A stretch of 64,000 nt of DNA from Polytrichum commune (taxonomy: Eukaryota > Streptophyta > Polytrichopsida > Polytrichales > Polytrichaceae): NCBI GenBank assembly GCA_950295325.1, contig OX485804.1, positions 56,296,001 through 56,360,000 on the forward strand. Direction: 5' to 3'. The translations under genes were made by a program, and so were the position numbers. This document shows positions 35,198 to 57,350 of this stretch, in pieces (position 1 is the stretch's first letter; the number at the start of each line of letters is the position of its first letter). The notes beneath the pieces were generated by a model. It ran no database searches. It had not been told where the DNA came from and worked only from the letters and a program-made list of their open reading frames with translations.

Positions 35198-35390
35198 GTG
35201 TATATATAAGGAATAGAGGAAGGATGCCAAAAAGGGAAAACGGGCATCGGCTGGAAAAAAGGGGAAAACCCTAAACATCAATCGGCAATATAAAGAAGGG
35301 AAGGGAAGGGACACTATGTGCGGAAAGAAGTGAGAAGCCCTAAGAGTATAGCATATGAGAGATAGAAATATTTAGAACCGGGAAGCACAC

Positions 35391-37645: not shown

Positions 37646-37646
37646 T

Positions 37647-37666
37647 AATTGGTGCGTCCGCCGGGA
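37647..37666 (+). other. primer-binding-site-like sequence
   Basis: AATTGGTGCGTCCGCCGGGA directly follows the 5' LTR after one T. The TGG start and GCCGGG part resemble plant Ty3-type primer sites complementary to a tRNA 3' end; an Asp-type tRNA is the nearest by memory, but the match is imperfect. Confidence 0.5.
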
Positions 37667-38553: not shown

Positions 38554-41500
38554 ATGCAAGGTAGGACTCGCTCACAAAAACCAAGTTTGATAGTAGGACT
38601 AGAGAAATCTACTCGAAAGAGGCGGTCCTCTAAAATCAGTGATAGATTAGAACAAGATAATGTTAGAATAGAGAGTTGTTTGAACGTCGAACCTAGGACT
38701 AGGTCAATTCTAGACACCTTAGAACTTGGAGCTCAACTTGAAGAGGAGATCACTCCCTCCAAATTGAGTGGTGAAACTTCTTCGGAAAATTACACACTTA
38801 GAGAAGAATTCCCGGTAGAAGTTGATAGGGGATTGTTGAATAGTTCACCGGTCACCATGGCCGAGGAACGGGGGATGGATCCACCACCCATACCCCCAAT
38901 TCCGCCCATACCTCCTATACCTCCAATAGACCCATTGGTTAGGCCAAGAGGCCTACCAATTGTGGTTCCACAAAATTTAGCGGCGATGGATATGCCATCT
39001 CATCTCCCTAAATTTTATGGGACCAAGGATGAGGACCCCTCTCGGCACATGGAACGGTATATCGAACGGTTGGCTAGCTTCCTCATAACCGACCCGGGTT
39101 ATTGGTTAGTGTGGTTTCCTACCACTCTAGAGGGGGAAGCCTATGAATGGTATCGGGATCATGCCGAGGGACATTTTAGGGGATGGGAACAATTACAAAG
39201 GGAGTTTCTTAACGAATTTAGGCCGGAAGTGGGTCAAAGTACCGCATTAAGGGCATTGTCGTCATTGAAGCAAGGAAGGGAGGAAGAAATTTCGGCTTAC
39301 ATTAGGAGGTTTGATTTAGTGTGCACTAGATTTGTGGGTACCATGCTCAACGACGACACGCTAAAGCAATTTTTCATTCAAGGGTTTTTTAAGTCCGGAA
39401 CTATTAGGGGTGTTCTAGAAAGGAATCCCTTGACCTTGGCGGATGCCAAGCGTGCGGCTAGAGATATTGAAAACTTGGATAAAGATCACGAAAGGCTATG
39501 GAGAAGGGAGGATGAATTGATCCCACAATTCATCCCCATACGCCCTAGGGTGGTAGCGGTAGAACCCGCTAAGTATGAGAACCAAATTCCATATGCCATT
39601 GTGGACACCGGTCCCCGACCTTTAGCGGTTAGGGAACCGGCACCTCTTTTGGCACTACCGGCCCCTAGAACGGATCCACACTTGGAGGAGGTTGAGAGAA
39701 GACTAGGTGCTAGCCAACTAGGATTCCAAGAGGCTATGATAAAACAAATGCAAAGCCTCACGGATCAAATGTCATTAATGATCCGGAGTCAACAACCGGG
39801 GCCTCCACCCCCGGTTGAGTCGGGTAGGCATTCTTCCGGATTATGGTGTGTCCAATGTGGCCAACCGGGCCACACGCGTCAATTTTGTAGAAGTGGACAA
39901 AACCGTGACCAAAGAGGAAACGGTAACCCACCTCAACAAAATCAACGAGGTCAAGCGCCACCTCACTATGGAAATGGAAGCAATAGAGGACCACAACCTA
40001 GAGGGCAAGGTGGCCAAAATTTAGAGAAGAAGGAATTTCATCCCTTTTGTGGAAGGTGGCACGCTCAAGGACAATGTTGGTCCGAAGGTCAAGAGTTTAA
40101 TTGTAGCAATTGTGGAGGAAGTCATCCCTCGGATACGTGTCGCCAACCGGACAAAATAATTAATGTCCCTTACCCGGTGGCTAATCCACAACAACAAGCA
40201 AGGGATAATATGCGAGGTGCTAGGCCACAAGGAGTACCGGCCAATGAACTTAGGCCACCTAACTTATACTATGACCATAGTAATGCTAGGCAAACTTTTC
40301 ATCCACCGGCGGGCTTGCAAACTACAACCGGTTACATTCCAATACAAAATAGACAAGGAGTTCCACCTAATGGTAGTAACGGGAGACAAGCGCCTCCAAC
40401 GGATCCGGGACCATCTAACTCCCAAGATGTTAGGTTCATGGATGGAGTGTTGGAGGCCACATGTGATGACATGCTTCCTCTCCCAACGAGAATTGGAGAG
40501 GAGCAAAGTCAATGGCCTCCTCACACCAATGCTATTACATATGAGTTAGTGAAGGGTAAGGGGGTGGTTGAAGAAGCACCTGCACTAGCGGTAACTACTA
40601 GGGCTAGGAGAGGGGATGCCCCGTTGGAGGTAGGAATAGGAGAGCAAGGAAATTACTCTTCGGATGAAGAGATTAATCTCTCCGAGTTGGATAGGGTAGC
40701 TAGAAGAGCTACTAAGGATGTGGAGAGGGAAAATATAATTTTACAAGATAGGGAGAGGACTAATGCGGTACATGACTTGGATAATAGCGATGTGGGTGAA
40801 TGGGAAGGACCGGGGGTTCCCGTAGACGAATTCGACGTAGTGGGTAATTCTAAGGTGGAAAGATCTACCGGGTACGACTTGTGGGCGGACCTTAGTACAC
40901 TCAAGGCGGATATTACTTTCGGCCAACTATTGGAAATTTCACCCACGGCAAGGAAAACATTAAAGGAGGGAATGCCGGTACACAAGAGGATGAGGAAGGT
41001 GAAAGCTAAAATAGCCGCTAGGATCCAATCACAAGGTGGAAGAGACGTGAAAGCTATAGAAATAGAAGTTGTTATAGTAGATAAGGTGGTTCCTAATGTG
41101 CTAGTCGACGGAGGGAGTAGTCTAAATATACTACCGGAGGATACTATGAAAAAATTGGGACTTGGACTCACGGGGCCTTCACCTTTGGTCATAAATATGG
41201 CAAATCAAAGTTCGACTACGCCTTTGGGGATGATCAAGGATTGTAGAATGACTACGGGAGGTGAGGAGTACTTGGTCACCTTCCATGTCATTAAAATGCA
41301 CTCCAACAAGGACACCTTCCCCATTTTGCTAGGTAGGCCTTGGTTGCGGATGGCGAATGCTATGGTCAATTGGGGTGGACCTAAACCATCCATCACTTAT
41401 GGTCCGGAGGGTAATAGGGTCATAGTGTCCATTGGTTCATTAGAAGGATGGATGAAGAAGGAGATGTATTTGCCATTGGAGAAGGAAATTGATGACTTAA

Positions 41501-43596
41501 ACGAGAATGAGATTGGCAAGGCATTGGTGGGAGTCGTCCATCCCGAAGGTCAAAGGGTTGTTATAGATTCGGGCTCGGGAAGTCTAGGTCCTAATTTTTA
41601 CAATTATGGGGATAATGGGGATTATGCCCAATGGCTAAGGGAGTACCCCGAGTCCGAGGTTGATGTAATGGTTACATTTCACCAAGTAGGCTTAGGGAGT
41701 GAATTTCCTAGTGTTAGTTTAGGAGAGGGCTCATTGTTGGAGCCATGTGAGGTGCTCACCGAGGAAGAGTGGGTTAGCGGTGGGTTAACACCTTGGGTAG
41801 ATGACGTGGAAGAGGGTGAGGTTAGTTTAATTCATGTAGATGGGACTCAAGAGGAGGATGTGATTATTGAGTCATCGAAATTGGAGGAGCCTTTACATTT
41901 CAAGACCACGTCTACGGGGATAGTTGTAGGTCAAGATGTGAAAGATTACCCCAATGTGCCTTCCGATTGGTATCGGAACAAAGAGGAACAAGCACATGTG
42001 TCGGAAGCGGATTGGCGGTACGTGGATGTGAAATTAAAGAATGGAAAAACCCGACAAATGAAGATGGGCTCCAAATTGGGGGAGAAAGAGGTTAGGGAGT
42101 ATAGCAATTTGGTGGATGAGTTTAGTGATACTTTTGCATGGTCCTACGATGAGCTTAAGGGAATTCCTAGGGAAATGGTAGAGCACCGGATTCCTTTAAT
42201 TCCGGGGGCGAGGCCAATTAGACAAAAGGAGAGGAGGATGCATTTACAAGCGGACCACTTGTCTAGGTTGTCGGAGGAGATAGGAAAAAATCCGGTAAAT
42301 GATATGTTAGTAGATGATAGCCTCTTTGTGGTCACTTCTACACCGGAGTGGTATGCGGGCATAGTGGAATTTCTAACAACCCACAAGTTGCCCAAAGAGT
42401 GGACAAAAGAAGAGAGAAGGAAGGTGAGGGTAAATAGTAGGCAATTTGTTGTAGTGGGCCATAGGTTGTTTAGAAGGGGGTCCGATGGTATTTTACGACG
42501 ATGCGTGTCAAAAACGGAGGTTGAAGCGATTTTAATCGCTTGCCACGATAGCGCTTGCGGCGGTCACTTCTCAGGTCAACTCACCGGGCAAAAAATACTT
42601 AGAGCGGGCTACTTTTGGCCTACACTATTTAAGGACGCCCATGACTATGTAAGGAAATGCGACGCTTGCCAACGGTATGCCCGAGACGACCTTAGAATGG
42701 AGATGCCTTTACATGTATCATTACCCTTAATTCCTTTCGAAAAATGGGGCATCGACTATGTGGGTGAGGTCCATCCCCAATCTTCAAAAGGAATGAAATA
42801 TATTGTGGTGGCAACCGAGTACCTCACCAAGTGGGCGGAAGCCAAAGCGGTGAAGACCGACACGGCGGAACACGCGGCAACATTTATGTACGAAAACATA
42901 ATTTCGCGGTTCGGGGTGCCGAAGATCCTAGTAAGCGATAGGGGTACTCACTTTTTGAATGACTTGATTCGAGAGATGACAGAGAAATTTAAAATTGATC
43001 ACCGGAAGACTACTCCCTACCACCCACAAACCAATGGACAAACGGAAAGGGTTAACGGAATTTTGGTGAGTATACTACGCAAGACGGTTATAGACTCGAA
43101 GCGGGATTGGGATACGAAACTAACGGCGGCACTTTGGGCATACCGTACAACCTATAAGGTAACTACGCGTGCTACACCATTTTCCTTAGTCTATGGTCTT
43201 GAAGCGACACTACCAATCGAATATGAAGTCGAGTCACTTAGGGTGGCCGTGAGTACGAGACTTACCGAAAGTCAATCCTTACGAAATCGACTAACCGATT
43301 TGGAAGCACTTGACGAAGGGAGGAGCATGGCGGCTCAACATATTGAGGCAATCCAAAGAAGGAGAAAAATTACTTTCGACAAACGACATAAGAGAAGGGC
43401 CCTAACACCGGGAATGATGGTCATGATTCAAGACGCACGAAAGCTTGAATTTCCGGCGAAATTCAATGCGGTATGGTTAGGACCTTACCTTGTCTATGAG
43501 GTCTTTCCTAATAATTCAATTCAATTGGAAACGTTGAATGGTGAGTTCTTTCCTACCCGTACATCGGGAAGTAGATGTAAGGAGTACCGAGCTTGA
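38554..43596 (+). CDS. gag-protease-integrase polyprotein, RT and RNase H deleted in frame
   Basis: A single ORF of 1680 codons. Gag capsid domain at about residues 148-310 (LEGEAYEWYRDHAEG). Two zinc knuckles: C432-X2-C435-X4-H440-X4-C445, and a shorter C517-X2-C520-X3-H524-X4-C529. Retropepsin motif LVDGGSSLNILP with Asp852 and the later ILLGRPWL. RT begins (HRIPLIPGARPIRQKERRM) but at about residue 1229 it jumps to ADHLSRL, the end of a normal RNase H, so the YVDD-type core and RNase H are absent. Integrase is complete: H1331-X6-H1338 and C1369-X2-C1372, D1401, D1462, E1498 (35 residues between the last two), and GPY at 1643-1645. No chromodomain is seen. The product could assemble and integrate but not copy RNA. 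The stop lies 61 bp before the 3' LTR. Confidence 0.92.
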   Translation: MQGRTRSQKPSLIVGLEKSTRKRRSSKISDRLEQDNVRIESCLNVEPRTRSILDTLELGAQLEEEITPSKLSGETSSENYTLREEFPVEVDRGLLNSSPVTMAEERGMDPPPIPPIPPIPPIPPIDPLVRPRGLPIVVPQNLAAMDMPSHLPKFYGTKDEDPSRHMERYIERLASFLITDPGYWLVWFPTTLEGEAYEWYRDHAEGHFRGWEQLQREFLNEFRPEVGQSTALRALSSLKQGREEEISAYIRRFDLVCTRFVGTMLNDDTLKQFFIQGFFKSGTIRGVLERNPLTLADAKRAARDIENLDKDHERLWRREDELIPQFIPIRPRVVAVEPAKYENQIPYAIVDTGPRPLAVREPAPLLALPAPRTDPHLEEVERRLGASQLGFQEAMIKQMQSLTDQMSLMIRSQQPGPPPPVESGRHSSGLWCVQCGQPGHTRQFCRSGQNRDQRGNGNPPQQNQRGQAPPHYGNGSNRGPQPRGQGGQNLEKKEFHPFCGRWHAQGQCWSEGQEFNCSNCGGSHPSDTCRQPDKIINVPYPVANPQQQARDNMRGARPQGVPANELRPPNLYYDHSNARQTFHPPAGLQTTTGYIPIQNRQGVPPNGSNGRQAPPTDPGPSNSQDVRFMDGVLEATCDDMLPLPTRIGEEQSQWPPHTNAITYELVKGKGVVEEAPALAVTTRARRGDAPLEVGIGEQGNYSSDEEINLSELDRVARRATKDVERENIILQDRERTNAVHDLDNSDVGEWEGPGVPVDEFDVVGNSKVERSTGYDLWADLSTLKADITFGQLLEISPTARKTLKEGMPVHKRMRKVKAKIAARIQSQGGRDVKAIEIEVVIVDKVVPNVLVDGGSSLNILPEDTMKKLGLGLTGPSPLVINMANQSSTTPLGMIKDCRMTTGGEEYLVTFHVIKMHSNKDTFPILLGRPWLRMANAMVNWGGPKPSITYGPEGNRVIVSIGSLEGWMKKEMYLPLEKEIDDLNENEIGKALVGVVHPEGQRVVIDSGSGSLGPNFYNYGDNGDYAQWLREYPESEVDVMVTFHQVGLGSEFPSVSLGEGSLLEPCEVLTEEEWVSGGLTPWVDDVEEGEVSLIHVDGTQEEDVIIESSKLEEPLHFKTTSTGIVVGQDVKDYPNVPSDWYRNKEEQAHVSEADWRYVDVKLKNGKTRQMKMGSKLGEKEVREYSNLVDEFSDTFAWSYDELKGIPREMVEHRIPLIPGARPIRQKERRMHLQADHLSRLSEEIGKNPVNDMLVDDSLFVVTSTPEWYAGIVEFLTTHKLPKEWTKEERRKVRVNSRQFVVVGHRLFRRGSDGILRRCVSKTEVEAILIACHDSACGGHFSGQLTGQKILRAGYFWPTLFKDAHDYVRKCDACQRYARDDLRMEMPLHVSLPLIPFEKWGIDYVGEVHPQSSKGMKYIVVATEYLTKWAEAKAVKTDTAEHAATFMYENIISRFGVPKILVSDRGTHFLNDLIREMTEKFKIDHRKTTPYHPQTNGQTERVNGILVSILRKTVIDSKRDWDTKLTAALWAYRTTYKVTTRATPFSLVYGLEATLPIEYEVESLRVAVSTRLTESQSLRNRLTDLEALDEGRSMAAQHIEAIQRRRKITFDKRHKRRALTPGMMVMIQDARKLEFPAKFNAVWLGPYLVYEVFPNNSIQLETLNGEFFPTRTSGSRCKEYRA

Positions 43597-43657
43597 CTAG
43601 GCAACTTACCCTTGGAGCAAGAGATGTTTGGATTCATCCCCCGATGGTCGCCAATTA

Positions 43658-45072
43658 TGTGAGCCCAAAAGGGTGCCCACATTTAGTCTTAGACCCTTGA
43701 AACGTTAGTTGATGCACTTTGAAGTAGCATGTTACTTCACAAAAATATAAAAAGAGTGAAATGTTAGTCTTAGAAGTACCATGTTGTAAGAGGCTAGGAT
43801 GTGAGTTGTTATTGTGTTTTTACCTTCGGAAGGATTTGAGTGAATGAGGATAGGTAAGGAGAACTTGGATTGAGTAGTTAGTGAGTAGGCTAGTACAAAT
43901 GGATGGAGACAACCAAAGTGACTCAAGAGGCAAGTGCATTCGAATTGGGATGAATGGAGGATCACATGAAGCGCACAAGTGGACCACCTCATCATGGCCA
44001 CTTAATGGGGAAGGCCCAAGGAAGAATGCAAGGTGGAGGATAAGCAAATTCTCAAAGCACCAATCAAATCACATCGTGGTTTGAATTAAGTGGTGAGCGA
44101 CGATTTGGGAAAGTAAGGGGAGAAAGTTATGGCGGCGGAAAGCGAAGGAGGCTAAGTTTGGGTTGAAGCATCCCAAGTTTGGTAAAGTGTGGTAGGTAGA
44201 AAGCCAAGGCTAGTTAAATGTTCGAATTAGGATCCTTGTTGATCATTTGAGGGAGGAAGGCTTAGAAGATAGGATTGGCGCCTACTAAGTAGGAGGAAAT
44301 CTCAAGGGCTTATCGTGAGCCTTGAGGGTGCTCACCCCCTCAAGCTTACTATATAATCCCTCATTCTTCCCTCACTCACTCTCTCTTTCCTTTGTGCTCC
44401 AAGGCACCCCACGAGTTATAAGTGTGGGTGTGGGAAGCCATATTGGAGCACATGTGTGTGCTTAGTTTTTAGTTTGAGAGCCAAGGCTTGTTAGCCTTGA
44501 AGAGGGCTTGACCTCTTGGTAGAATTAGTGTTGACGTGAAGGATTTTAAAGTTAATTCATGATTCCAATTTGTGGTACTTTAAGTTCATGTTTTGAATAC
44601 ACGTGGTTGCAAGTTCCATGTTTAAGAGTTGAGCACTTGATATTGTGATGAGTGCAAAAATATACTTGTGTGGATTAGTTAGTCTTAGTGAAGTTAGGAA
44701 ATTCTCTCTCCCCCTCTCCTCTCTAGGATTTTAGGATTTTAGGATTAGAGAAGAATTGTGTGATTAGAAAGGGGTTGTTAGTAGAATTAGGGAAATTAGG
44801 TAGGAAGATTAGTTAAGGGCTTGAATAATTAGTGAGGTAGTTGGGGATTACAACTACAAAGTTGTGGGTTCATGAAGGAGCTGGGTTTATGAAGGAGCTG
44901 GGTTTATGAAGGAGCTGGGTTTATGAAGGAGCTAGTTAAATCCAAGACCACTTGAAGGGTGAACCTTGCACTATGGACTCATCCAAGTCCAAATCCAATA
45001 CCGCGGAGGAATGTGAGCCCAAACCCACTACTCGGACTACGGACGCTTAAGGGTGGGGGGTTTGGCCTCACA
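43658..45072 (+). repeat. 3' LTR
   Basis: 1415 bp, same length and apparently the same sequence as the 5' LTR, followed by the CCCCT target duplication. Confidence 0.95.
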
Positions 45073-45329
45073 CCCCTTGCCTGGAAGTTGCTAGATAGAA
45101 GATAGGGACAGTGGGAATCTCGTTAATCCATTCATGGGCGACACTTCTCGCCGGCATCTAGAAGCACTCTCGCCGCCCTCAAACCTAACAGGTACGCTCA
45201 AGAGCGCCCTCGCTATCTACGCTACCCGGTTCGATTCAGAATGTTTAGGAGAAAACAGAAGGTTTGTGGGGTATTATGAAATGTTTTCATTTTCTAAACT
45301 TTCATTTCGGGGGGGGGGGGGATTCCGAA
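45073..45329. other. spacer between the retrotransposon and satellite A
   Basis: After the CCCCT duplication comes DNA resembling 36100-36225, then CTCTCGCCGCCCTC and related pieces that may be decayed units of satellite A. The short ORF 45134-45385 is unsupported. Confidence 0.4.
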
Positions 45330-48300
45330 ATTTCTTTCAATCAGGTACCCTCGCAGCGCCGAGAGGGGGGCCTAACTATGCTTAGGTGAAACCAGAATGT
45401 GTTTGGGGAAACCTGTAAAGTGTGAATTTTCAAATTCTCAGGTGGGGGGGTGGTAGTTCATTAGGAGAGGGTTGCGTTAGGTTGCTTAGGATAATCCAGA
45501 ATGTGTTTGGTTAAGCAAGTAATGTGTGATGCTTCAAGTTTCAGGGGGCCGGGGGTGGGAGTTCATGAATGTAAGCACCCTCTCGTCTCCGAGAAGGTAG
45601 CCTTAGAATGGTAAGCCGAAACCAGAATGTGTATGGGCAAGACTGAAATGATTCAGTTTAAAAAATTTTGAGTCGGGGGGGAGGGTGGGACTTCATGAAT
45701 GTAAGCACCCTCTCGGCTCCGAGAGGGTGGCCTTGAAATGGTTACGTGAATCCAGAATGTGTATTGGCAGGCCTAAAATGATTCAGTTTCGACATTTTTG
45801 AGTAGGGGGAGAGGGTGGTAGTTCATGAATGTAAGCACCCTCTCGGCTCCAGGAGGGTGACCTTGAAATGGTTACTTGAATCCAGAATGTGTATTGGTAG
45901 GCCTGAAATGATTTAGTTTTGAAATATTTGAGTCGGGGGGGGGGGGTGGTAGGTAATGAATGCAAGCACCATGTCGGTGAAGAGATGATGGCCTTACAAT
46001 GGTTAGGTGAATCAAGAATATGTATGGGCTAGACTGAAATGATTCAGTTTTAAAAATTTTGAGTCGGGGGGAGGGTGGGAGTTCATGAATGTAAGCACCC
46101 TCTCGGCTCCGAGAGGGTGGCCTTAGAATGGTTAGCCGAAACCAGAATGTGTATGGGTAAGCCTGAAATGATTAAGTTTCGAAAATTTTGAGTCGGGGGG
46201 GAGGGTGGTAGTTCATGAATGTAAGCACCCTCTAGGCTCCAAGAGGGTGACCTTGAAATGGTTACGTGAATCCAGAATGTGTATTGGTAGGCCTGAAATG
46301 ATTCAGTTTGGACATTTTTGAGTCAGGGGAGAGGGTGGTAGTTCATGAATGTAAGCACCCTCTCGGCTCCGAGAGGGTAGCCCTAGAATGGTTAGCCGAA
46401 ACCAGAATGTGTAAGGGCAAGACTGAAATGATTCAGTTTAAAAAAATTTAAGTCGGGGGGAGGGTGGTAGTTCTTGAATGCAAGACCATCTCGGTGCCGA
46501 GAGGGTGGCCTTGAAATGGGTACGTGAATCCAGAATGTGTATTGGTAGGCCTGAAATGATTTAGTTTTGAAATATTTGAGTCGGGGGGGGGGGTGGTAGG
46601 TAATGAATGCAAGCACCATGTCGGTGAAGAGATGATGGCCTTACAATGGTTAGGTGAATCAAGAATATGTATGGGCTAGACTGAAATGATTCAGTTTTAA
46701 AAATTTTGAGTCGGGGGGAGGGTGGGAGTTCATGAATGTAAGCACCCTCTCGGCTCCGAGAGGGTGGCCTTAGAATGGTTAGCCGAAACCAGAATGTGTA
46801 TGGGTAAGCCTGAAATGATTAAGTTTCGAAAATTTTGAGTCGGGGGGGAGGGTGGTAGTTCATGAATGTAAGCACCCTCTAGGCTCCAAGAGGGTGACCT
46901 TGAAATGGTTACGTGAATCCAGAATGTGTATTGGTAGGCCTGAAATGATTCAGTTTTGAAATATCTGAGTCGGGGGGGAGGGTGGGAGTTCATGAATGTG
47001 AGCACCCTCTCGGCTCCGAGAGGGTAGCCTTAGAATGGTTAGCCGAAACCAGAATGTGTAAGGGCAAGACTGAAATGATTCAGTTTCAAAAATTTTGAGT
47101 CGGGGGGGAGGGTGGTAGTTCTTGAATGCAAGCCCATCTCGGTGCCGAGAGGGTGTCCTTGAAATGGGTACGTGAATCCAGAATGTGTATTGGTAGGCCT
47201 GAAATGATTCAGTTTGGACATTTTTGAGTCGGGAGGAGGGTGGTAGTTCATGAATGTAAGCACCGAGAGGGTGGCTTTAGTTTGATTACGTGAATCCAGA
47301 ATGTGTATGGGCAAGCCTGAAATATGTGATTTTTCTAATTTTAAGGGGAACGGGGGTGGTAGGTAATGAATGCAAGCACCATGTCGGTGAAGAGATGGTG
47401 GCCTTACAATGGATAGCTGAATCAAGAATGTGTATGGGCTAGATTGAGATGATTCAGTCTTAAAATTTTTGAGTCGGGTTAGGTGAATCAAGAATGTGTA
47501 TGGGTAAACCTATAATGTGTGATAATTCAAATTCTCAGTTAGGGGGGGGGGTGGTAGATCATTAGTCCAAGCATGCTGTCGGCTCCGAGAGGGTGGCTTT
47601 AGGTTGCTTACGTGAATCCAGAATGTGTAGGGGTATGCATGTAATATGTGATTTATCGAATTTTCAGGGGAACGGGGGTGGTAGGTCATGAATGCAAGCA
47701 CCATCTAGGTGCCGAGATGGTGGCCATAGTGTGGTTAGGCGAAACCAAAATGTGTATGGGTAAGCCTGAAATGATTAAGTTTCAAAAATTTTGAGTCGGG
47801 GGGGAGGGTGGTAGTGGGGGGGGGGGTTAGTTCATAAATGCAGGTACCCTCTCGGCATATAGAAGGTGGCCTTAGAATGGTTATGTGAATCCAGAATGTG
47901 TATGGGTAATTCTGAAATGTTCGATTTATGAAATTTTGAGTGGGGGGGGGGGGATGGTAGTTCATAAATCCAGGTACCCTGTAGGCTCCGAGAGGGTAGA
48001 CATATAATGGTAAGGTGAATCCAGTATGTGTATTGTTAGGCCTGAAATGATTCAATTTCGGGGGGGAGGGTGGTCGTGCATGAATGCAAGCATCATCTGG
48101 GAGCCGAGAGGGTGGCCTTGGAATGTTTTGGTGAATACAGAATGTCTATGGGTGGGCCTGAAATGGTCGATTTTACATATCTTCATTTGGGGGGGGTGCT
48201 AAGAATCTTCTTTGTGTGGAGGTGAATCAACAATGTACCATGTCGGAGCCGAGAGGGAGGCCTTTGTATATGTAGGTGAATCCAGAATGTGTATGTGTAA

Positions 48301-48440
48301 ACCTGTAATGGGTGATTTTTGAAAATAACAGGGGGGGGGGTGGTGTTTAGTTCAGTAGTCCAAGCACTCTCTCGGCTCTGAGAGGATGGCCTTAGAATGG
48401 GTAGGTGAATCCAGAATGTGTAAGGGTAAGCCTGAAGAGA
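45330..48440 (+). repeat. satellite A: about 24 units of ~130 bp, each with a palindrome and a G-tract
   Basis: Units repeat every 130 bp; CCAGAATGTGTATGGG-type blocks start near 45621, 45751, 45881, 46011, 46141 and so on. Each unit has TGAAATGATTCAGTTT, a run of 6-13 G, GTAGTTCATGAATG, and a palindrome with arms ACCCTCTCGG and CCGAGAGGGT around a central CT. A five-unit block is itself repeated at 650 bp (45880-46330 against 46530-46980). The array runs to within about 40-60 bp of the proposed ATG of the next gene, so that gene's promoter must lie within or beside it. Minus-strand Pro-rich ORFs here are repeat artefacts. Confidence 0.92.
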
Positions 48441-48478
48441 TTGATTTAACATGGGCGTGTGTTCAGGCATCTCAGTCT

Positions 48479-51400
48479 ATGGATCCCTCGCAATCACAAG
48501 ATCCCTCCATGGAGGAACAAGGCCTTCAATCTGAGCTGCCGGTGGAGGAGATTACGGCTATAGATCATGGGTTACAGGGAGAGGTGATTGCTTTGCTTAA
48601 TGATTTGTTTGTTTGTATTCTCATGACTATGTGAATGTATTTTGAATTTGTGTATCCTTTCGCTGATATTTCATTTTATTTTGGTCTTCCATGTAGAATG
48701 AGGTGACGGTTTCACGGGACTGCGTGCGTCCTCTTGAGGATTCAAACCCAGAGGAGACCGAGCTTGTAAGACGAAAGTCACAGAAAGAGGACTCGAACGC
48801 TGTTATTCATCGTGTTCGAATCAAACCTCTTAACAAGTCACGGTTCTCTATTCCATTGTGCCGCTTGCGATGTCTTCCTCTTGTGCGGCCCATCAACGAG
48901 GTTGATGTCTCTCGGTTGGAAAATGAGTTTGTGATGGGTTATCGTGACGGTGACCGTGCTTTGTACGTGTCTCCCTACAACAACATGAATAATGTCCTAT
49001 ATGTTTCAGACGATATCATGGCCTCTTGGAGTTCATTATGGCGAGAGGCGAATGAAGAGTTCGATGCCATGCTTCGAGCCGACTCCGTCCTTGCACAGTT
49101 TGTTGGCAAGATGTTCTTTGTGTGGGAGGGGAACCATCGTTTGACGGCTTGGTGGAGGCACATCAATAAACATCACTCTCTCGACAAAGATTGGCATATC
49201 TCAGTTGACTGCATTGTCGTGGATCCGAGGAATAGCACCGTTGTCTTCTTGAATGCCATGAATGACATTAATTGGTGAGTTTGGTTTTTTCATTGTATGT
49301 TTTTTTTGGTTTATTCTTTTATTTTCCATTTCTCATTGATTTGTTTTTTAGGTCCACGGAGCACGACCATGTTAAGGACAACCTCCCTGCGAAATTGCTT
49401 CGCATTCGAACCTTTGGGAAGATGAAGCTCGAGGATTTCAAGGACCTCATTTCCCCTGCGGACTACAAGATGTGCGAGTCCAAGATGGATAAGAATCCTA
49501 CTTGGTATCCGCTCACCTTAGATATCTTTGTCAAGTTCTTGTACAAGGTAATTTTCTTTCAAATCTCCTTCCATTTTCTTCTTTTCATTTGATGCCCTTG
49601 CTTTAAACTCATATGTGCATTCTCCAGAGAGAAATATCGAATGCGGCCGATACCGCAGCAAGGCTCTACCGCGAGGCTACTCCGGAGGATCGCCGGTCCG
49701 CTACTGAGATTTGGGACACAATGACGAAAGCTCAGGATAGATTAATCAAGCACATTCGCACGCGGAATTTCGAAAAGTACATCTCCGTTGCTCACAAGGA
49801 CAACGGCGAGGATTTCTTTCTTGAGGTGCCTCCCCTTCCGATTTTTTTATTTCGTTACTTTCATTTTCTTTTTGTTTTCGTTGTAATTTGTGTCTTGTTT
49901 GTTACAAGACAGTGTTCTTCTTTGCAGATTGATCGACATTTTTCTGCCTTCCTTGTGACGGACATGACTATCGAGAAACTCCAAAAGGTGGCCACCACAC
50001 ATGTGGAAGCCTCCGTCAAGGCTAGGTGGCTTCGGTGGTGGAACTCGCCCGCCGATGTCAAAACCATAAACAAGTTTCCTACTGCTCTTCCATTACGCGA
50101 GAAGGTCCTCGATGATTGGCTTCACAGGGCGTCGTTCTGGGCTCAAGTAATCCAATCCATCATTATTTAGTTTTGATTTTGTGCACCCAATCCATCATTG
50201 TATTGTTTTGTTTTGTTTTGTTTTGTTTAGTTCTTTGTCATATCTAAGTTAATGCTTGTCTCGTTTTAGTTGGAGAAGGGGGTTGAGGGTGAGATCGCCA
50301 CCTTTGAAAATGAATGTACGATCGACGTCGACNNNNNNNNNNNNNNNNNNNNNNNNNNNNNNNNNNNNNNNNNNNNNNNNNNNNNNNNNNNNNNNNNNNN
50401 NNNNNNNNNNNNNNNNNNNNNNNNNNNNNNNNNNNNNNNNNNNNNNNNNNNNNNNNNNNNNNNNNNNNNNNNNNNNNNNNNNNNNNNNNNNNNNNNNNNN
50501 NNNNNNNNNNNNNNNNNNNNNNNNNNNNNNNNCGATACGAGGTACAGTCATTGTGTGTACACTCTCATGCAGATTACCAAATTCCCACGCGCGCACTTGG
50601 TCGCAGGTGGCTGGTTCTTGGACTGTTCTCGTGGATTCGTGCCTGAATCTGAGGAACAACTTTACAGCAACCTCGTTTCTTATGTCCCCGAGGGTATTGA
50701 ACTGGAGGAGGAGCCGGAGGAAGAGGAGATCCCGCCTCCTCCCACCATTGTCAAAGAGGTTGGGTCCTCAAAGGGTAAGGGTAGGAAGCTTGTCCCCCAT
50801 GCCTCCTCTCAAGTTTCTACTCGTTCTTACACAAAGGCTTCCGTTCAACGGACTGTTGCTCCATCCACCACCGTAGTTGGAAGTCCAACCGCCACTCCTT
50901 CTGCCCTTGCCCCCGATCCGCTACCAGGTCTTTCCCATAGTGGCGCAACCATCCCATCGGTGCCTCGCAAGAGGAAGGCTGTTCCACCGGATACATCGGC
51001 AACTTCCTCGGAAATGACATCTTCCCTTTCGTTGATTGAGAATGTGGACATGGAAGAGCTCATTGAGAATCTAATGAAGACAAAGATTCAACCTCCCGCC
51101 TACCGCCACATCCAAGAATTCTTGGCCAAGGTTTGTATGCCAATTTCTAGCTTTATCCTTTAGTTCCTTACAGTTCAACATTTGTTTTTTTTGTTATTGA
51201 TTTTGTTTGCATATTTGCTTCTCAGGTTGGAGCAGGGCGTGCTCGTCCAAACATCAAGCCTAAGATTCACACAGGCATTGACCTGCTATTTGCAGATGTT
51301 CCCGAGAACCTCCCTGTGCCTAGCATCTCGGCCTCTTCTTCGGATGTTCTTGCGTGGAACAAGCGGTCTTCCACTTACTTCGAGGTTTTATTTGCCTTCG

Positions 51401-52575
51401 CCAGTGCTAACCTCCATGACAACGGCGTCCTCGTCTTCGCACACGCCGCGGATCCTGACGTCTCTAGCTCAATTTACAATTGGACGCACACTGAAGAATT
51501 CTACGTTGCCGAAGATTGGTTTGGCATGAATGACCTTGATCTCCAATCGTCCACTTCTCCTTCTGAACTGGTAATTACTTTTCGGCTTCATCCATTTTCA
51601 TTCTTTCCTTACTTCGTTCATCTATGTATTCCTAATTCTACCGTTCGTTTTTTGTGCAGACTCGCAAGTTTTTTATCAAGGTCCTTGTTCGTAATGATTA
51701 TGTCTTGAATTTTCGTACCTCGGAGTTCCAAGACATGGGTTACAATCTTAAGAGAGATGGTTGGCTCAACAGCTTCGTTGATGCAAAGAACCAATCGATG
51801 AGGGAAGACGGGATGCCCTGGAGAGGTGCTCATGAGAAACGCCCCGATTTTTTTTCCATCATTTTCTCTGCCCTCACAGACAAGGACGACATTATAATGG
51901 ATTGGCAATGTGGCGTTGGTATGTTATTCATCTCTTTGTTATTCATTTTGATTTTTTTTTTCTCCTAGTTCTTTTGATTTTTTTTTCCATTTTTCGGTCA
52001 TTCCCGGTTACTCACCTTTGTGCTTTTCGTTGTACTAGGAGGTTCTGTTATTGCATGCCGCTCCATTCAACGACATATTGTTGCTTTGGAGTCGGGCATC
52101 GACATCTACAAGTCCGTCCTCCTCCCCATGCGTGATGCTGACCAAGAGCACACCTCTCAGCACGTGGCCCCTCAACGCCGCTCTGTTTTTGCTCCTCCTC
52201 CTCGGAAGATGGCCAAGCGCAATTTTGATTTGCTCTGTGCGTAAGTTCGTTATTGGCTTCGAACTTGCTTACTTTCATTTTTATCTTCTCGGTTCGAACT
52301 TGTTGGCATGGGCTAATATTATTTTATTTTTGTCCTGTATGTTCAGAGTTCAAAAGGAGAGCCCGATTTGCGTTCTTACCGCGGACATGTTTTCGACGCC
52401 TTCGTCGACGTTCGAACTCCCTTCCTATGCTGCTGAGCTTGCCACTCTTTTGGCTGAAGCACCGTCCCCACCTCCTATTCGGCCCTGCCCTTTCAACAAA
52501 CTAGTTTTGGATTTCCTAGACATAGAGGCCGATCAGGGGGAGGATAGTGATAGACATGGTAGTCCAAGTGGTTGA
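48479..52575 (+). CDS. ten-exon gene: ParB-like N-terminal domain plus beta-class DNA methyltransferase-like C-terminal domain
   Basis: Exons: 48479-48583, 48697-49274, 49352-49547, 49628-49825, 49928-50146, 50270-51130 (holds a 200-N gap), 51226-51570, 51660-51918, 52039-52240 and 52347-52575. All introns are GT-AG and phases agree, giving 1063 residues. Residues about 84-215 resemble a ParB/sulfiredoxin-type domain: RLRCLPLVRPINEVDV, then WEGNHRLTAWW with G180-N-H-R183. The middle is helical and Trp-rich. Residues 664-668 (PRKRK) could be a nuclear signal. The C-terminus has GIDLLFADVPEN (motif IV position, D743-V-P745) before PWRGAHEKRPDFF and DIIMDWQCGVGGS (motif I, from D915), then RHIVALESGIDIY: the order IV-X-I of beta-class N6A/N4C methyltransferases, with altered catalytic residues. 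Satellites A and B flank it closely. Function is inferred; DNA binding or modification is likely. An in-frame upstream ATG at 48386 lies in satellite A. Confidence 0.8.
50333..50532. other. assembly gap (200 N) inside exon 6
   Basis: Exactly 200 N. The reading frame on both sides agrees across 200 nt only if the gap size is right or congruent modulo three. Round length suggests a placeholder, so the true exon length and protein length (about 67 unknown residues) are uncertain. Confidence 0.95.
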
Positions 52576-52741
52576 CTACGCCTCTCACCTCTATCTCATA
52601 TGTATTGCTTTCGTTAAAGTTTTTTATAAGTTTGTTTTATGAATTTCCATCTGCCTTTTACAATCCCATATATCTCCTTCATCTTCCTATGTTGGTGTTT
52701 GATTTCAATTCTCTATTTCGAGTTGTCAAACCTATGTTTAA
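52576..52741 (+). other. 3' untranslated region of the ParB/methyltransferase-like gene
   Basis: AT-rich 166 bp between the stop codon and satellite B. No clear AATAAA was seen. Confidence 0.35.
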
Positions 52742-53235
52742 GTAGGCTCTCGGCTCTAAGGTAATGGATTTGTTGTCAAGGAACACATATTCATTTTATG
52801 TGGATGTTGGTTTTTTGTGTTCATGTAGACTCTCGGCTTCGAGAGTCTAAGGTCTTAGATGTCAAGATTTTGATTTTATGTGCATGGTTGATTTTATGGT
52901 TGGTTAGGCTCTCGGCTCCGAGTGGGTGAGGTCTTATGTGTCTAGGACCACATTTTGTATTAGTGTGGATGGTTGTTTTTATGTTTGGTTAGGCTCTCGG
53001 CTCCGAGAGGGTAAGGCCTTAGGTGTCTTGGACCAAATTTTTTATTAATGTAAATGCTTTTACATTATGTTAGGGTAGTATCTCGGCTCCGATATGGTAA
53101 GGTCTTAGTTGAAGGGGACCACATTTTGTATTACTGTGCATGGTTGATTTTTTGTTTGGTTGGTCTCTCATCTCCTAGAGGGTGAGGTACTAGTTGTCTA
53201 GGACCACATTTTGAATTAGTGTGGATGGTGTTAGT
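52742..53235 (+). repeat. satellite B: six units of ~84 bp carrying the satellite A palindrome core
   Basis: CTCTCGG-type palindromes start near 52747, 52830, 52909, 52994, 53080 and 53164. Most read GGCTCTCGG-CT-CCGAGAGGG; the unit at 52826-52849 is a perfect inverted repeat TAGACTCTCG / CGAGAGTCTA with a 4-nt loop. Between palindromes the units share GGTCTTAG, GGACCACATTTTG and GTGGATGGTTG. Apart from the palindrome core, the sequence is unlike satellite A. Confidence 0.85.
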
Positions 53236-53727
53236 TGTGGACCGAATTGTCTCTTGCTAGTTGGGTTGCTATTTCTCTAGTTGAGGGGTTAGGGGTGGGG
53301 GATTAGTTTGGCTCCAGATATTGCATGAGCCATTGTGGTCATTATGTTATTGATCCCATCCCCCACTCAAGTTAAGATTTGCCCCTTCAATCTAGTGCAA
53401 TCCGAACCTTAAATGACACCATTGATTTCCATGTCCACGTGGATCCTTTTCACATTGAAGTTTAGTTTGAGTTATGATATTGATTCCAACCCCCCCTCAA
53501 GTAAAGATTCACCCCATTAATTTGGAGGAATCCAATCACATATCTTACCCATAATGTTTGCCTCCACGTGCACCCCATTCACATTGGCCGTCTTCCAATC
53601 CCAAATGCTATATAGCAAATGCAAGTTTTGTTTGGGCATCTCCCGGCCACATTTGATGAAGGCTCCATTCTTGAATTCAGGTGTGTCACTCTATCAAAAT
53701 TTATGCATTTTTGAATATATGGGTTGT
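53236..53727. other. spacer between satellites B and C
   Basis: Non-coding. Two diverged direct copies of CCCCCACTCAAGTTAAGATTTGCCCC / CCCCCCTCAAGTAAAGATTC-type sequence occur at about 53355-53460 and 53485-53580, each followed by a CCACGTGGATCC or CCACGTGCACCCC block. No gene. Confidence 0.4.
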
Positions 53728-55975
53728 GTATGTGGGTAAGGCCTTGGCCAAAAATTCGGATTGTATGCTCTTGTGTGTGAGAATAAGGCCTTGGCAACAA
53801 ATTTCAGATTGTCGGCTCTTGTGTGTGAGAATAAGTCCTTGGTCAAACATATCAGATTAGTGCCTTGGCCAAAAATTTCAGATTGTATGCTCTTCTATGT
53901 GAGGTTAAGGCATTGGCCAAAAAATTCAGATTGTTGGCTCTGTGTGTGAGGTTAAGGCCTTGGCCTGAAATTTGTGATTGTTAGCTCTTGTTTATGAGGT
54001 TAAGGCCTTATCCAATACTTCAGATTGTATGCTCTTCTGTGTAAGGATAAGGCCTTGGCCACAAAATTCAGATTGTATGCTCTTGTTTGTGTTGATAAGG
54101 CCTTGGCACTAAATTCAGATTGTATGCTCTTGTGTGTGAGGATAAGGCCTTGGCCAAACATTTGTGATTGTTGGCTCTTGTGTGTGAGGATAAGTCCTTG
54201 GCCAAACATTTGTGATTGTTGGCTCTTGTGTGTGAGGTTAAGTCCTTGGCCAAACATATCAGATTAGTGGCTCTTGTGTGTGAATTTAAGGCCTTGGCCA
54301 AAAATTTGTGATTGTTAGCTCTTGTATATAAGGTTGAGGCCTTGGCCACAAAATTCAGATTGTTGGCTCTGTGTGTGAGGTTAAGGCCTTGGCCTGAAAT
54401 TTGTGATGGTTAACTCTTGTTTATGAGGTTAAGGCCTTATCCAAAACTTCAGATTGTATGCTCTTCTGTGTAAGGATAAGGCCTTGGCCACAAAATTCAG
54501 ATTGTATGCTCTTGTGTGTGATGTTAAGGCCTTGGCACTAAATTCAGATTGTATGCTCTTGTGTGTGAGGATAAGGCCTTGGCCAAACATTTGTGATTGT
54601 TGGCTCTTGTGTGTGAGGTTAAGTCCTTGGCCAAACATATCAGATTAGTGGCTCTCGTGTGTGAATTTAAGGCCTTGGCCAAAAAATTTCGATTGTTAGC
54701 TCTTGTATATAAGGTTGAGGCCATGGCCACAAAATTCAGATTGTTGGCTCTGTGTGTGAGGTTAAGGCCTTGGCCTGAAATTTGTGATTGTTAGCTCTTG
54801 TTTATGAGGTTAAGGCCTTATCCAATACTTCAGATTGTATGCTCTTCTGTGTAAGGATAAGGCCTTGGCCACAAAATTCAGATTGTATGCTCTTGTTTGT
54901 GATGATAAGGCCTTGGCACTAAATTCAGATTGTATGCTCTTGTGTGTAAGGATAAGGCCTTGGCCACAAAATTCAGATTGTATGCTCTTGTTTGTGATGA
55001 TAAGGCCTTGGCACTAAATTCAGATTGTTGACTCTTGTGTGTGAGGATAAGGCCTTGGCCAAACATTTGTGATTGTTGGCTCTTGTGTGTGAGGATAAGG
55101 CCTTGGCCAAACATTTGTGATTGTTGGCTCTTGTGTGTGTGGTTAAGTCCTTGGCCAAACATATGGGATTAGTGGCTCTTGTGTGTGAGGTTAAGTCCTT
55201 GGCCAAACATTTGTGATTGTTGGCTCTTGTGTGTGTGGTTAAGTTCTTGGCCAAACATATGGGATTAGTGGCTCTTGTGTGTGAGGTTAAGTCCTTGGCC
55301 AAACATTTGTGATTGTTGGCTCTTGTGTGTGTGGTTAAGTCCTTGGCCAAACATATGGGATTAGTGGCTCTTGTGTGTGAGGTTAAGCCCTTGGCCAAAC
55401 ATTTGTGATTGTTGGCTCTTGTGTGTGTGGTTAAGTCCTTGGCCAAACATATCAGATTAGTGGCTCTTGTGTGTGAGGATAAGGCCTTGGCCAAAAATTT
55501 GTGATTGGTAGCTCTTGTATATGAGGTTGAGGCCTCGGCCACAAAATTCAAATGGTATTCTCTTGCATGTGAGGTTAAGGCCTTCGCAACCATTTCAGAT
55601 TGTTGGCTATTGTGTGTGAGGTTAAGGCCTTGGCCAAAAATTTGTGTTTGTTGGCTCTTGTGTGTGAGGTTAAGGCCTTGGCCAAAAATTTGTGTTTGTT
55701 GGCTCTTGTGTGTGAGGTTAAGTCCTTGGCTAAACATATCATATTAGTGGCTCTTGTGTGTGAATTTATGGCCTTGGCCAAAAATTTGAAATTGTTAGCT
55801 CTTGTATATGAGGTTCAGGCCTTGGCCACAAAATTGAGATGGTATGCTCTTGTATGTGAGGTTAAGGCCTTGGCAACCATTTCAGATTGTTGGCTCTTGT
55901 GTGTGAGGTTAAGGCCTTGGCCAAAAATTTCAGATTGTATGCTCATGTATATGAGGTTAAGGCTCTTGTGAATTT
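53728..55975 (+). repeat. satellite C: about 46 units of 48 bp
   Basis: The unit is close to GTTAAGGCCTTGGCCAAAAA + TTTCAGATTG + TTGGCTCTTGTGTGTGAG. The 48-bp period can be read exactly at 55621 and 55669. The core joins two 8-bp palindromes, AAGGCCTT and TTGGCCAA. Higher-order patterns are visible (alternation of CAGATTAGTGGCTC and GTGATTGTTGGCTC units at 55140-55460). Since 48 is divisible by three, long open frames run through it on both strands; they do not indicate genes. Confidence 0.93.
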
Positions 55976-56099
55976 TAAGCATTCTTCAGTCTTTGGGTTG
56001 AGGTTAAGTTCTTGGCCAAAATTTACTTGATTTTTGATTTCATTTGTGTACCTCATCATTCGTTCATCAGGTTGTGGAAGATCGCTCTAATTGCACGTC

Positions 56100-56600
56100 A
56101 TGGAGCCACTCGTATTGCATTTGGACCTATATGTACAATTGTCAGTCTTAGTTCCTAGCATATTGGTGGGTGCCGCAAATGTGGATACGGGCCGGGAGAC
56201 GGTATTGGACACCCAACGTCGTTTGTCGCTAATCCACGATTTGAGGCTATGTTACAAATCATGGAAAAATGTTGTGGATAAAAGTGTGGAGTACAATGCT
56301 CTTCGTTTGGCTCAATATGAATACGCCATGAGTCCCAATGTAGACTTAAGGGTGTGTTTGCCACGCGAACATAACCTCATCACACAATTTCAAATGAACA
56401 TGATGTGGTTCTCTCATAGCCGCCACGTCAGTTCAAAAATTTCGCGGAGGATTCTTATGTCGGACTTGGGGGATTTGTCATTGCGTTCATTGGCTAAGCT
56501 AAGGGATGAATTGGAGAGCTGCTGGTGTGCGGAAGAGTTCTATGGCATGATCTTTGAATCCTTTTATCCATATTGGACATGCCCGGCCGATAGGGTGTAG
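56100..56600 (+). CDS. small F-box-like protein, 166 residues
   Basis: ATG 56100 to TAG 56598-56600. Residues about 25-60 (RRLSLIHDLRLCYKSWKNVV, NALRLAQYEYA) have the Leu/Trp pattern of an F-box (L..VC..W...V), the segment by which a protein joins SCF ubiquitin ligases. The rest (REHNLITQFQMNMMWFS, LSLRSLAKLRDELESCW) is helical with no known domain. An acceptor-like TTCATCAG lies 30 bp upstream, so an earlier exon could exist inside or before satellite C. It follows the satellite directly and may be part of the same repeated locus. F-box identity is tentative. Confidence 0.5.
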   Translation: MEPLVLHLDLYVQLSVLVPSILVGAANVDTGRETVLDTQRRLSLIHDLRLCYKSWKNVVDKSVEYNALRLAQYEYAMSPNVDLRVCLPREHNLITQFQMNMMWFSHSRHVSSKISRRILMSDLGDLSLRSLAKLRDELESCWCAEEFYGMIFESFYPYWTCPADRV

Positions 56601-57350
56601 ATGGAACTAAAGTAGAGGATGGTTGTATATAGCTACTTGAACTGAATACACATTTTTGTAAGTCTTCAGTTTGGCACCTAACTTCATGAACATTTTCTCG
56701 GCCAATCAAATATTTTATGTATGGTAGTTATTGAAATCTAATCGTACTTGGAAATAGTACCCAACCTACTTGGCGCAATTTATCACTTTGTGGAAATCAT
56801 TTATGTACACTTCAGTTCTTCATCATATGTTAATGTTTGATTTCAATTGGTGACGTCAGCCCTAATTTAATATGAAACGTTTCAAACCTAGACTATAGGA
56901 TGTTTGAGAACAAATGCAATCTTCCACGCCTATAGGATCCATTGGTTTCTCGAACAATTCAGGGTTCTTATGTCCACGGGAATGGGGTGCCTTTCCAACA
57001 AATTGAATGCAAACTACCCTTAAATCCACGGAAATAGGCACTACTTCTCCTAAAATTACCCAATAAAATCTAAATTTTCCGCTATCCAATAACCGCTCTA
57101 CGCTCACACTACTAAGTTTCCCGAAGACCAAGCGTAGTCAAGTGGCAAGCTCTCATTTACCGCCATCTCTGAGGACCAATGGTCGGGGAAAACCGACGGC
57201 TAGTTCATTATCAGCCGATGGATTTCCCCTCATGGCCGGTCCAAATTTCCAACCATCGGATGGCAATCCGACTGTAATTTCAATCCTCTGGCAATTAGCC
57301 GATGGACCAGAAAATGTCCCGGAAATGTAGCCGATTCTTCTTGTGAGTTA
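56601..57350. other. non-coding spacer
   Basis: No gene recognised. GCCGATGG and CGATGGATT pieces recur near 57210-57310. The short ORFs (56862-57131 minus, 57142-57330 plus) have no support. Confidence 0.4.

Follow-up and report, generated by a model that had tools for sequence, protein, structure and literature searches.

The gene and satellites found in the window (the whole 64,000-nucleotide stretch of Polytrichum commune DNA that was analysed) belong to a high-copy DNA transposon with terminal inverted repeats (TIRs), the gene as its accessory gene and the satellites as repeats in its interior. The transposon carries palindromic arrays, the type of palindrome matches the gene group at the loci inspected, and the C-terminal half of the accessory protein is methyltransferase-like. 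An earlier note on this DNA had proposed that gene and arrays may form a self-referential locus; a free-standing ParB/parS or centromere-like locus was ruled out, as gene and arrays lie together inside the TIR element.

A TIR transposon encloses the gene and its satellites

The transposon spans 30400-57122 and holds the accessory gene, satellites A and B, a transposase-like gene in divergent orientation, and a nested Gypsy element that is young. Its features are as follows (window positions; strand in brackets where one applies):

30391..30399: 5' copy of the target site duplication (TSD), 9-bp GAAGACCAA
30400..30430: 5' TIR, imperfect; its inner TGTGAGCGTAGAGCGG (30415-30430) is identical to the 3' end at 16/16 positions
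30917..31453 (+): ORF1, a stop-to-stop frame of 178 aa
31671..32918 (-): C-terminal part of the transposase-like ORF; a SWIM-like CxC..CxH was seen in it by eye
33206..35371 (-): N-terminal part and core of the transposase-like ORF, which runs divergently to the accessory gene
36231..45072 (+): nested Ty3/Gypsy retrotransposon, LTRs 36231-37645 and 43658-45072, TSD CCCCT
45238..48450: satellite A, upstream of the gene, ~130-bp units with CTCTCGG-nn-CCGAGAG
48479..50332 (+): accessory gene, exons 1-6 (48479-48583, 48697-49274, 49352-49547, 49628-49825, 49928-50146, 50270-gap)
50333..50532: assembly gap of 200 N inside the accessory gene
50533..52575 (+): accessory gene, last five exons seen (gap-51130, 51226-51570, 51660-51918, 52039-52240, 52347-52575)
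52742..53240: satellite B, ~85-bp units, palindrome as in A
53724..56036: satellite C, 44 units of 48 bp that lack the palindrome
56355..57105: the element's 3' tail, in two segments (56355-56729 and 56836-57105)
57093..57122: 3' TIR
57123..57131: 3' copy of the TSD, 9-bp GAAGACCAA

The imperfect TIRs, about 30 bp long, are common to the window element and the copy B2, and both copies have TSDs (GAAGACCAA in the window, GTTCATTTG in B2) that measure 9 bp if counted from the same start base, with the matching letters running to 10 and 11. TIRs are present in most Mutator-like elements (MULEs), not all. The TSDs of MULEs are 8-11 bp, usually 9 bp (PMC6446971). Going by the 9-bp TSD, the element is a large TIR transposon most like the Mutator-like superfamily. 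B1 and B2 are colinear with the window element, and the two segments of its 3' tail are 78% and 89% identical to theirs; B1 and B2 are 99% identical to each other and therefore not independent. A candidate 3' end of B1 and B2 at position 10893 of their stretches, with insertion at A palindromes, was dropped, as a longer comparison revealed that the element continues and that B1 has another insertion at this position. At least 150 exon-2 matches were scored across the home genome (407.8 Mb), and a search for exon-2 relatives in viral contigs and prokaryote genome contigs found none.

Divergent transposase-like ORFs are present in the window, B1, B2, L015, L018, L040 and L041; no transposase-like match was found at L039, L016 and L042, where the stretches cover roughly the 5-6.5 kb that precede exon 2. 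DDE-like and SWIM-like patterns were recognised in these ORFs by eye only, the CxC..CxH of the 31671..32918 ORF being what we take to be the latter, and Pfam (E up to 10) gave nothing credible for five transposase-like ORF pieces from two elements. ORF1 recurs in L015, L018, L036, L037 and L038. The nested Gypsy, whose LTRs are identical over 1415 bp and which is flanked by a 5-bp TSD, is a later insertion foreign to the transposon itself.

The accessory gene (48479-52575) had been described as a ten-exon gene open on both sides of the gap. Gene and gap were borne out, and the exon count was revised to at least 11, whole or partial, with nine GT-AG introns (five before the gap, four after). 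The spliced model took 50573 as the first base after the gap; since relatives, for example P0002, retain coding sequence upstream of 50573, the first exon after the gap probably begins within the gap. The gene ends with a TGA at 52573-52575, and satellite B begins 166 bp on. The proposed placement of the gene between two satellites with one common palindrome was confirmed in the sequence.

Exact CTCTCGG-nn-CCGAGAG occurs in the window at 45710, 46100, 46360, 46747, 47007 and 52994, and at 0 sites in the 37 kb of the window beyond the transposon. The assertion that satellites A and B have only the palindrome in common nearly held: they also share an in-register block, CTCTCGGCTCCGAGAGGGT(AA)GG(T/C)CTTAG (score 42; best of 500 shuffles 30), and with the palindrome masked nothing significant was detected between them, the observed score being reached in 298/1000 and 470/1000 shuffles. 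Derivation of all three satellites from one repeat was dropped; under two scorings, the likeness of B to C is marginal (equalled by 32/500 and 74/500 shuffles) and that of A to C is absent (226/500 and 144/500). The enclosing transposon and the third array, of 48-bp units at 53724-56036, had been missed in the earlier note.

Palindrome types and gene groups across the genome

The A palindrome, CTCTCGG-nn-CCGAGAG, recurs next to or within other copies, in satellites with periods of about 85, 106, 128-130 and 139 bp, with arrays also in introns and on either side of the gene. The arms of the B type are GAGGCCTCGG-AT-CCGAGGCCTC and variants, those of the C type are AATCCCACGG-AT-CCGTGGGATT, and only CGG-nn-CCG is common to all three. 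Genome-wide, exact CTCTCGGCTCCGAGAG was found at 195 sites (84 on one strand and 111 on the other) and its reversed letters at 0, and the A palindrome is therefore not due to chance; the corresponding counts were 2214 against 0 for B and 87 against 0 for C.

A-type loci besides the window were located via the palindrome and do not test its presence. All six loci picked by gene sequence alone carried CGG-nn-CCG palindromic arrays (five of the B type or a variant, one of the C type), indicating that gene and arrays recur as a unit, and no homologue lacking arrays was met among the loci inspected. As predicted, the palindrome differs between the gene groups compared, each of the three groups (A, B and C) having its own arms; this covariation rests on three gene groups, and L041 could not be assigned to any of them, the loci outside A comprising two gene groups and L041. 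No locus among those compared mixed the three 14-base palindrome forms. A 22-bp palindrome was perfect in 26 of 31 sites (up to 4 mismatches allowed) in the B1 stretch and in 35 of 42 in the B2 stretch (L034 and L035), within repeats of different periods in both.

The distribution of palindrome clusters was also compared with that of exon 2. Nine of the 24 listed A clusters had a listed A-type exon 2 no more than 20 kb away (mean 0.33, maximum 3 in 2000 random shifts), and 0/24 had a listed B-type exon no more than 30 kb away. Sixteen of these 24 clusters were inspected; arrays without the gene may exist at L023, which is gene-free in its 10 kb, and outside the inspected loci. L027 has a single exon match of 21 aa, and L030 has one exact palindrome site. 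Among the B clusters listed on C1 (n = 5), two had a listed non-A exon 2 nearby and three had none. By eye, the seven listed C clusters, defined as clusters of TCCCACGGATCCGTGGGA, were near none of the 150 exon-2 matches listed, few of which are C-like. L022 is a natural chimera: its exons 4-6 are of the A type, its exons 7-11 of the B type, and it carries A palindromes. Its array is linked to the half of A type, and the copy contains stop codons.

Methyltransferase likeness of the accessory protein

In beta-class amino DNA methyltransferases, motif IV precedes motif I, the SAM motif is D-x4-G-x-G and the catalytic motif is (D/N/S)PP(Y/F/W). The last five exons encode ADVPEN and DWQCGVGGS in the order motif IV to motif I (DLLFADVPEN...DWQCGVGG), and profile comparison with beta-class enzymes gave a score of 35.05, whereas the maximum of 100 column permutations was 24.9 (0/100 reached it); the hhalign probability was 50%. 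A PDB sequence search with this half returned just two weak matches, each to a methyltransferase of the DpnA type (E 0.095 and 0.13). Phage tblastn gave best E values of 0.2 and 0.1 for the two protein halves, and 13 of the 20 rows listed for the C-terminal half were annotated methylase or methyltransferase. The profile comparison supports the resemblance of the C-terminal half to beta-class enzymes, proposed as a IV-X-I order, for IV to I. Pfam (E up to 1) assigned 0 families to the two visible halves, and a PHROG scan of the gene gave nothing credible.

The proposed ParB-like fold of the N-terminal half (exons 1-6), which contains the GNHR motif, fared less well: neither Pfam nor the PDB sequence search gave a credible match for it. 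The N-terminal half scored 16.75 against a ParB profile over 9 columns (1/100 permutations as high), and higher, 18.32, against the methyltransferase part (8/100 as high). AlphaFold predicted exon 2 with a pLDDT of 40, which is uninformative on the fold.

Readings of the gene-array pairing

We lean, by a modest degree, towards a transposon-encoded DNA-recognition protein that coevolves with its own repeated targets, with an anti-silencing outcome like that of VANC. Beside its transposase-like gene, the TIR transposon would carry an accessory gene for a sequence-specific DNA-recognition protein, whose targets would be palindromes that the element multiplies in tandem within its non-coding DNA, namely in introns, in the stretch that separates the two divergent genes, and beyond the 3' end of the accessory gene. 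Protein and palindrome would diverge jointly, so that each subfamily would act on the copies belonging to it; the likely result would be that host silencing is removed or prevented on that subfamily, as by VANC for VANDAL. We infer from the sequences that the accessory protein may bind the palindrome through its N-terminal half; the pairing of gene groups and arms points to a protein in each element that recognises the repeats of that element, and an anti-silencing effect is presumed by analogy. Of the roles put forward in the earlier note, silencing evasion is closest to this reading, and the centromere-like one was rejected.

The arrays might instead be binding sites for the transposition machinery, with the accessory protein or the transposase assembling a transposition complex there, as TNPA binds the subterminal repeats of En/Spm. 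The arrays are indeed part of the element, in its non-coding DNA, and palindromes suit a dimeric protein; however, they are internal (in introns and between both genes) rather than terminal, and near-identical copies differ by kilobases in array length, so we regard this as unlikely. Slightly more unlikely are passive satellites generated by slippage or unequal crossing-over and carried by descent, the palindrome being merely an amplification hotspot. Shared descent of gene and array alone could yield the subfamily specificity, unit lengths vary freely, and the few bases that window satellites A and B match in register beyond the palindrome make an old common unit possible. Yet the arms are constant across unit lengths while the flanks diverge, and the inner CGG-nn-CCG is kept in the three types seen, with symmetrical change in the outer arms. 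That the palindrome acts as a hairpin or in RNA is also thought unlikely. The seven inner arm pairs of A units showed 0-3 compensatory cases each over 226 distinct sites, not above shuffles, which fits reading of the bases rather than a hairpin; joint change at the outer positions 10 and 11 exceeded shuffles, probably from pooling of different satellites.

Active modification, in which the protein methylates its own palindromes (4mC or 6mA) and so labels the element in bacterial style, is improbable. It is favoured by the beta-class profile score and by motif I, DWQCG(V/L)GGS, kept in 9/11 genomic rows. Against it, Pfam gave no match, the catalytic (D/N/S)PP(Y/F/W) is absent (0/26 family rows), and AD(V/I)PEN stands in 23/26 rows where DPPY is expected (DPPY 0/26), which makes catalysis doubtful.

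A further version of the recognition reading, less likely than not, is that the transposon family captured a bacterial-type ParB-methyltransferase-like protein, which in each subfamily would read, and perhaps chemically mark, the palindrome amplified there (common half-site CGG), with N-terminal specificity and with subfamilies escaping silencing independently. ParB-methyltransferase fusions (PF02195 + PF01555, e.g. Streptococcus phage Javan128) have a colinear C-terminal profile match from motif IV to I and possibly the same order, an N-terminal DNA-associated domain followed by the methyltransferase. Unlike them, the accessory protein has about 1000 aa, introns in its gene, an altered catalytic motif, no demonstrable ParB part and a eukaryotic-type transposon as carrier.

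For the coevolving recognition protein, the nearest precedent is VANDAL of Arabidopsis, described as Mutator-type elements with accessory genes and VANC anti-silencing proteins, whose motifs are tandem in non-coding DNA, in accessory-gene introns and upstream of the transposase (PMC5735166; PMC10398659). The motifs are of 8-9 bases (YAGTATTAY, AGTTGTCC) and palindromes go unmentioned in the text of PMC5735166, whereas those found here are of 16-28 bp. Both systems combine a Mutator-type element, accessory genes and a tandem motif in non-coding DNA including introns, and in both related families differ in motif and protein together, the repeats here being putative targets. They differ in the protein: VANC has DUF1985 and DUF287, neither of which Pfam found in the two visible halves flanking the gap, and the accessory protein is methyltransferase-like. 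As to the remark that no plant system of this form was known, VANDAL/VANC is a precedent for the proposed mechanism but not for the protein.

The papers compared describe VANDAL/VANC as a plant transposon system of sequence-specific anti-silencing. If the reading holds, a second system with a different protein, long clean palindromes, three candidate specificities and a chimera would make protein-target coevolution directly testable, and would suggest that transposons repeatedly counter silencing by amplifying their own recognition sites. It would also provide a source of methyltransferase-derived DNA-binding modules with separable specificities and account for palindromic satellites that otherwise seem unrelated. 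A transposon with such an accessory gene and palindromic arrays was not found in the PMC search listings or the three papers cited (subscription papers and preprints aside), and the passages of PMC6446971 compared on MULEs mention neither a methyltransferase nor palindromic arrays matched to gene subfamilies. The same text describes 9-bp TSDs and extra ORFs, as here, in other Mutator-like elements, the extra ORFs being mutB, vanB, vanC and, in 14 Phytophthora members, SET; it also describes a minisatellite after the transposase ORF in the Phantom elements of aphids (PMC6446971).

The methyltransferase-like gene and its enclosing transposon

The transposon enclosing the methyltransferase-like gene was delimited by comparison with two related copies elsewhere in the home genome, B1 (stretches L037, L032 and L033; contig C3) and B2 (L036, L034 and L035, with L038; contig C4). 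The divergent transposase-like gene, the methyltransferase-like gene, the 3′ satellite unit and the 3′ tail were colinear among all three. The features in the window are as follows.

30400-57122: TIR element, with direct repeat GAAGACCAA at either side
31117-35198: divergent transposase-like gene, block in common with B1 and B2
48479-52575: split methyltransferase-like gene
50333-50532: assembly gap (200 N), interrupting the gene
56355-57105: 3′ tail of the element, block in common with B1 and B2

The B2 element is flanked by direct repeat GTTCATTTG; the matching letters number 10 in the window and 11 in B2, or 9 bp if the same start base is taken for both. The element ends are imperfect inverted repeats containing TGTGAGCGTAGAGCGG. 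Target site duplications (TSDs) of 8-11 bp are described for Mutator-like elements in passages of PMC6446971, and the TSD length and TIRs found here agree with such elements. Judged only on its ends, the element is Mutator-like, a label limited in this way because a Pfam scan did not recognise the transposase-like ORFs. These ORFs, divergent from the gene, were present in the window, B1, B2 and the fetched stretches L015, L018, L040 and L041 (in L041 over 116 residues), and were not found in L039, L016 and L042, which take in some 5-6.5 kb of sequence ahead of exon 2. The Gypsy element between transposase and gene is a later insertion, with two identical LTRs of 1415 bp and the TSD CCCCT. This nested Ty3/Gypsy (36231-45072; LTRs 100% identical) is very young, and its one open frame of 1687 aa has Pfam matches to gag, a protease-like domain and integrase, with no Pfam match to reverse transcriptase.

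Eleven exons of the gene are visible, whole or partial, with GT-AG introns (n = 9); the earlier note's reading of one gene across the assembly gap held, and its count of ten exons did not. The first post-gap exon is visible from 50533 and begins within the gap, since relatives such as the protein P0002 keep coding sequence at that place. Satellite A (130-bp units) lies on one side of the gene and satellite B (85-bp units) on the other, with CTCTCGG-CT-CCGAGAG, the A-type palindrome, common to both. The proposal that they share almost nothing else needed a small correction: a few further in-register bases match just 3′ of the palindrome, and beyond these nothing significant does. Across the whole window, all six exact sites with the A palindrome arms fall inside the transposon and none outside.

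Gene groups and palindrome types

When exon 2 was searched against the 64 contigs (407.8 Mb) of the home genome, at least 150 scored matches were obtained among 1266 first-look candidates, the window included and some with stops. Manual sorting of the best 150 gave 97 A-type matches, with 67-100% identity to the window; the remaining 53 show 62-69%. Of the 97 A-type matches listed, 39 are concentrated at the end of contig C4 (41-59 Mb, its final 18 Mb), where length alone would predict about 4; the chromosome may be special or rich in repeats there. The family is represented by 36 and 19 proteins in a large public protein collection, none with a precomputed Pfam domain, and no relatives were found in prokaryote genome contigs or viral contigs.

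In all, 31 stretches were sampled, 20 of them at or adjoining exact A palindromes. Ascertainment differs, as the A loci were picked by palindrome and six others (B1, B2, L042, L040, L041 and L039) by gene sequence alone. The earlier note had asked whether gene homologues are accompanied by palindromic arrays, and arrays were present at all six. The B-type palindrome, GAGGCCTCGG-nn-CCGAGGCCTC, is found in B1, B2, L042 and L040 (with AT at its centre, but GT in L040), and the arrays of B1, B2 and L042 are near-identical. L039 has the C-type palindrome, AATCCCACGG-AT-CCGTGGGATT. In L041 the palindrome reads CCTCGG-AT-CCGAGG, and its outer arms are imperfect. By exon-2 identity, a grouping that leaves out L042 and L041 (the latter unplaced), B1, B2 and L040 form one group at 84%, L039 stands separate, with 58-64% identity to every other copy, and 75-90% is shared among the A-type copies in the comparison. 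Judged from sequence, the pattern is one of three gene groups and three palindromes. No locus contained two of the three 14-base palindrome forms. An open search for recurrent palindromes returned the same forms as leading in most loci, with none above threshold in L025, L027 and L030. Next to their B arrays, L042, B1 and B2 each have 3 copies of a 70-bp repeat that bears another, minor palindrome, CACGGGTG-nn-CACCCGTG.

Genome-wide counts came to 195 for the A palindrome with centre CT, 2214 for B and 87 for C (the B and C forms, being self-complementary, once per site), and the reversed-letter control gave 0 for each. Of the 195 A sites, the 100 listed fall into 24 clusters. For 9 of these, an A-type exon 2 among the matches listed lies no more than 20 kb away (2000 random shifts: mean 0.33, maximum 3); none has a listed exon of B type inside 30 kb. 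When further exons in fetched loci were counted (16 clusters inspected), the gene was clearly at hand in 13 of 24, window included. Two of these 13, at C1:20 kb and C1:50 kb, seem to be parts of one element, to judge from the TIRs at both of its ends. The large A array at C2:44.436 Mb lies 21 kb from a gene copy, the L027 cluster shows only one exon match of 21 aa, and the L023 cluster has no gene within its 10 kb. Unit lengths in the A arrays are near 85, 106, 128-130 and 139 bp, among others, and the arrays are placed upstream, downstream or in introns, chiefly intron 5. Counter to full linkage, a listed non-A exon 2 lies near only 2 of 5 B clusters on C1 among the matches listed, and, by eye, none of 7 listed C clusters lies near any of the best 150 exon-2 matches, which hold few C-like copies.

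A natural chimera was found in L022 (G000 C2:44468000-44477999, about 44.47 Mb). It combines an A-like exon 2 (77%) and A-type exons 4-6 with exons 7-11 of B type (86% over 2.2 kb). Both intron 5 and the upstream arrays have palindromes of A type. This makeup is what would be expected if the N-terminal half read the palindrome, a weak indication because the arrays are physically linked to the A-type half and the copy has stop codons.

The predicted protein and a proposed role of the arrays

The methyltransferase-like C-terminus proposed earlier was supported by profile comparison. When compared with the methyltransferase portion of ParB-methyltransferase fusions from phages, the C-terminal half aligned from motif IV to motif I with a score of 35.05 (probability 50%). 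All 100 column permutations scored lower (mean 14.5, maximum 24.9), as did the reversed control (12.3); weak PDB and phage matches also point toward methyltransferases. The N-terminal half scored 16.75 over 9 columns against the ParB part, a value reached by 1 of 100 permutations; its control comparison with the methyltransferase portion scored higher, at 18.32 (8 of 100 as high). The ParB reading is one of motif resemblance only. Among related, not independent, rows, motif I is DWQCG(V/L)GGS in 9 of 11 genomic rows, and motif IV is AD(V/I)PEN in 23 of 26 and DPPY in none, so the protein may be a non-catalytic binder of SAM or DNA. An AlphaFold model of exon 2 (pLDDT 40) was unusable.

According to PMC5735166, VANC proteins of Arabidopsis VANDAL elements bind short motifs that are tandemly repeated in the element encoding them, within introns and in upstream regions, motif and protein diverging in step. 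The element studied here has a similar anatomy but differs in having another protein and palindromic motifs. Among 226 distinct A sites, each of the seven inner arm pairs showed 0-3 compensatory changes, the same as in shuffles; because these arm changes are uncompensated, base reading by a dimer would fit better than a folded structure. Palindrome positions 10 and 11 change together, probably through the pooling of different satellites. The arrays could alternatively be bound by the transposition complex, be passive satellites, or reflect active self-methylation. Given the anatomy shared with VANDAL/VANC and the fit to base reading, a VANC-like role is favoured by analogy: the accessory protein would recognise its own element's palindromes, and this self-recognition would shield the element from silencing.

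Other features of the window

Outside the element, a DUF659 ORF of 579 aa (9279-11018) and a Dimer_Tnp_hAT fragment (57702-58067) are probably hAT-type remains. The minus strand of a 252-bp tandem repeat (62223-62968; 3 copies, 98% matches) holds a long open frame. An 893-bp direct repeat (15121-16013 and 63108-64000) is 100% identical between copies 48 kb apart, the second of which touches the window end.
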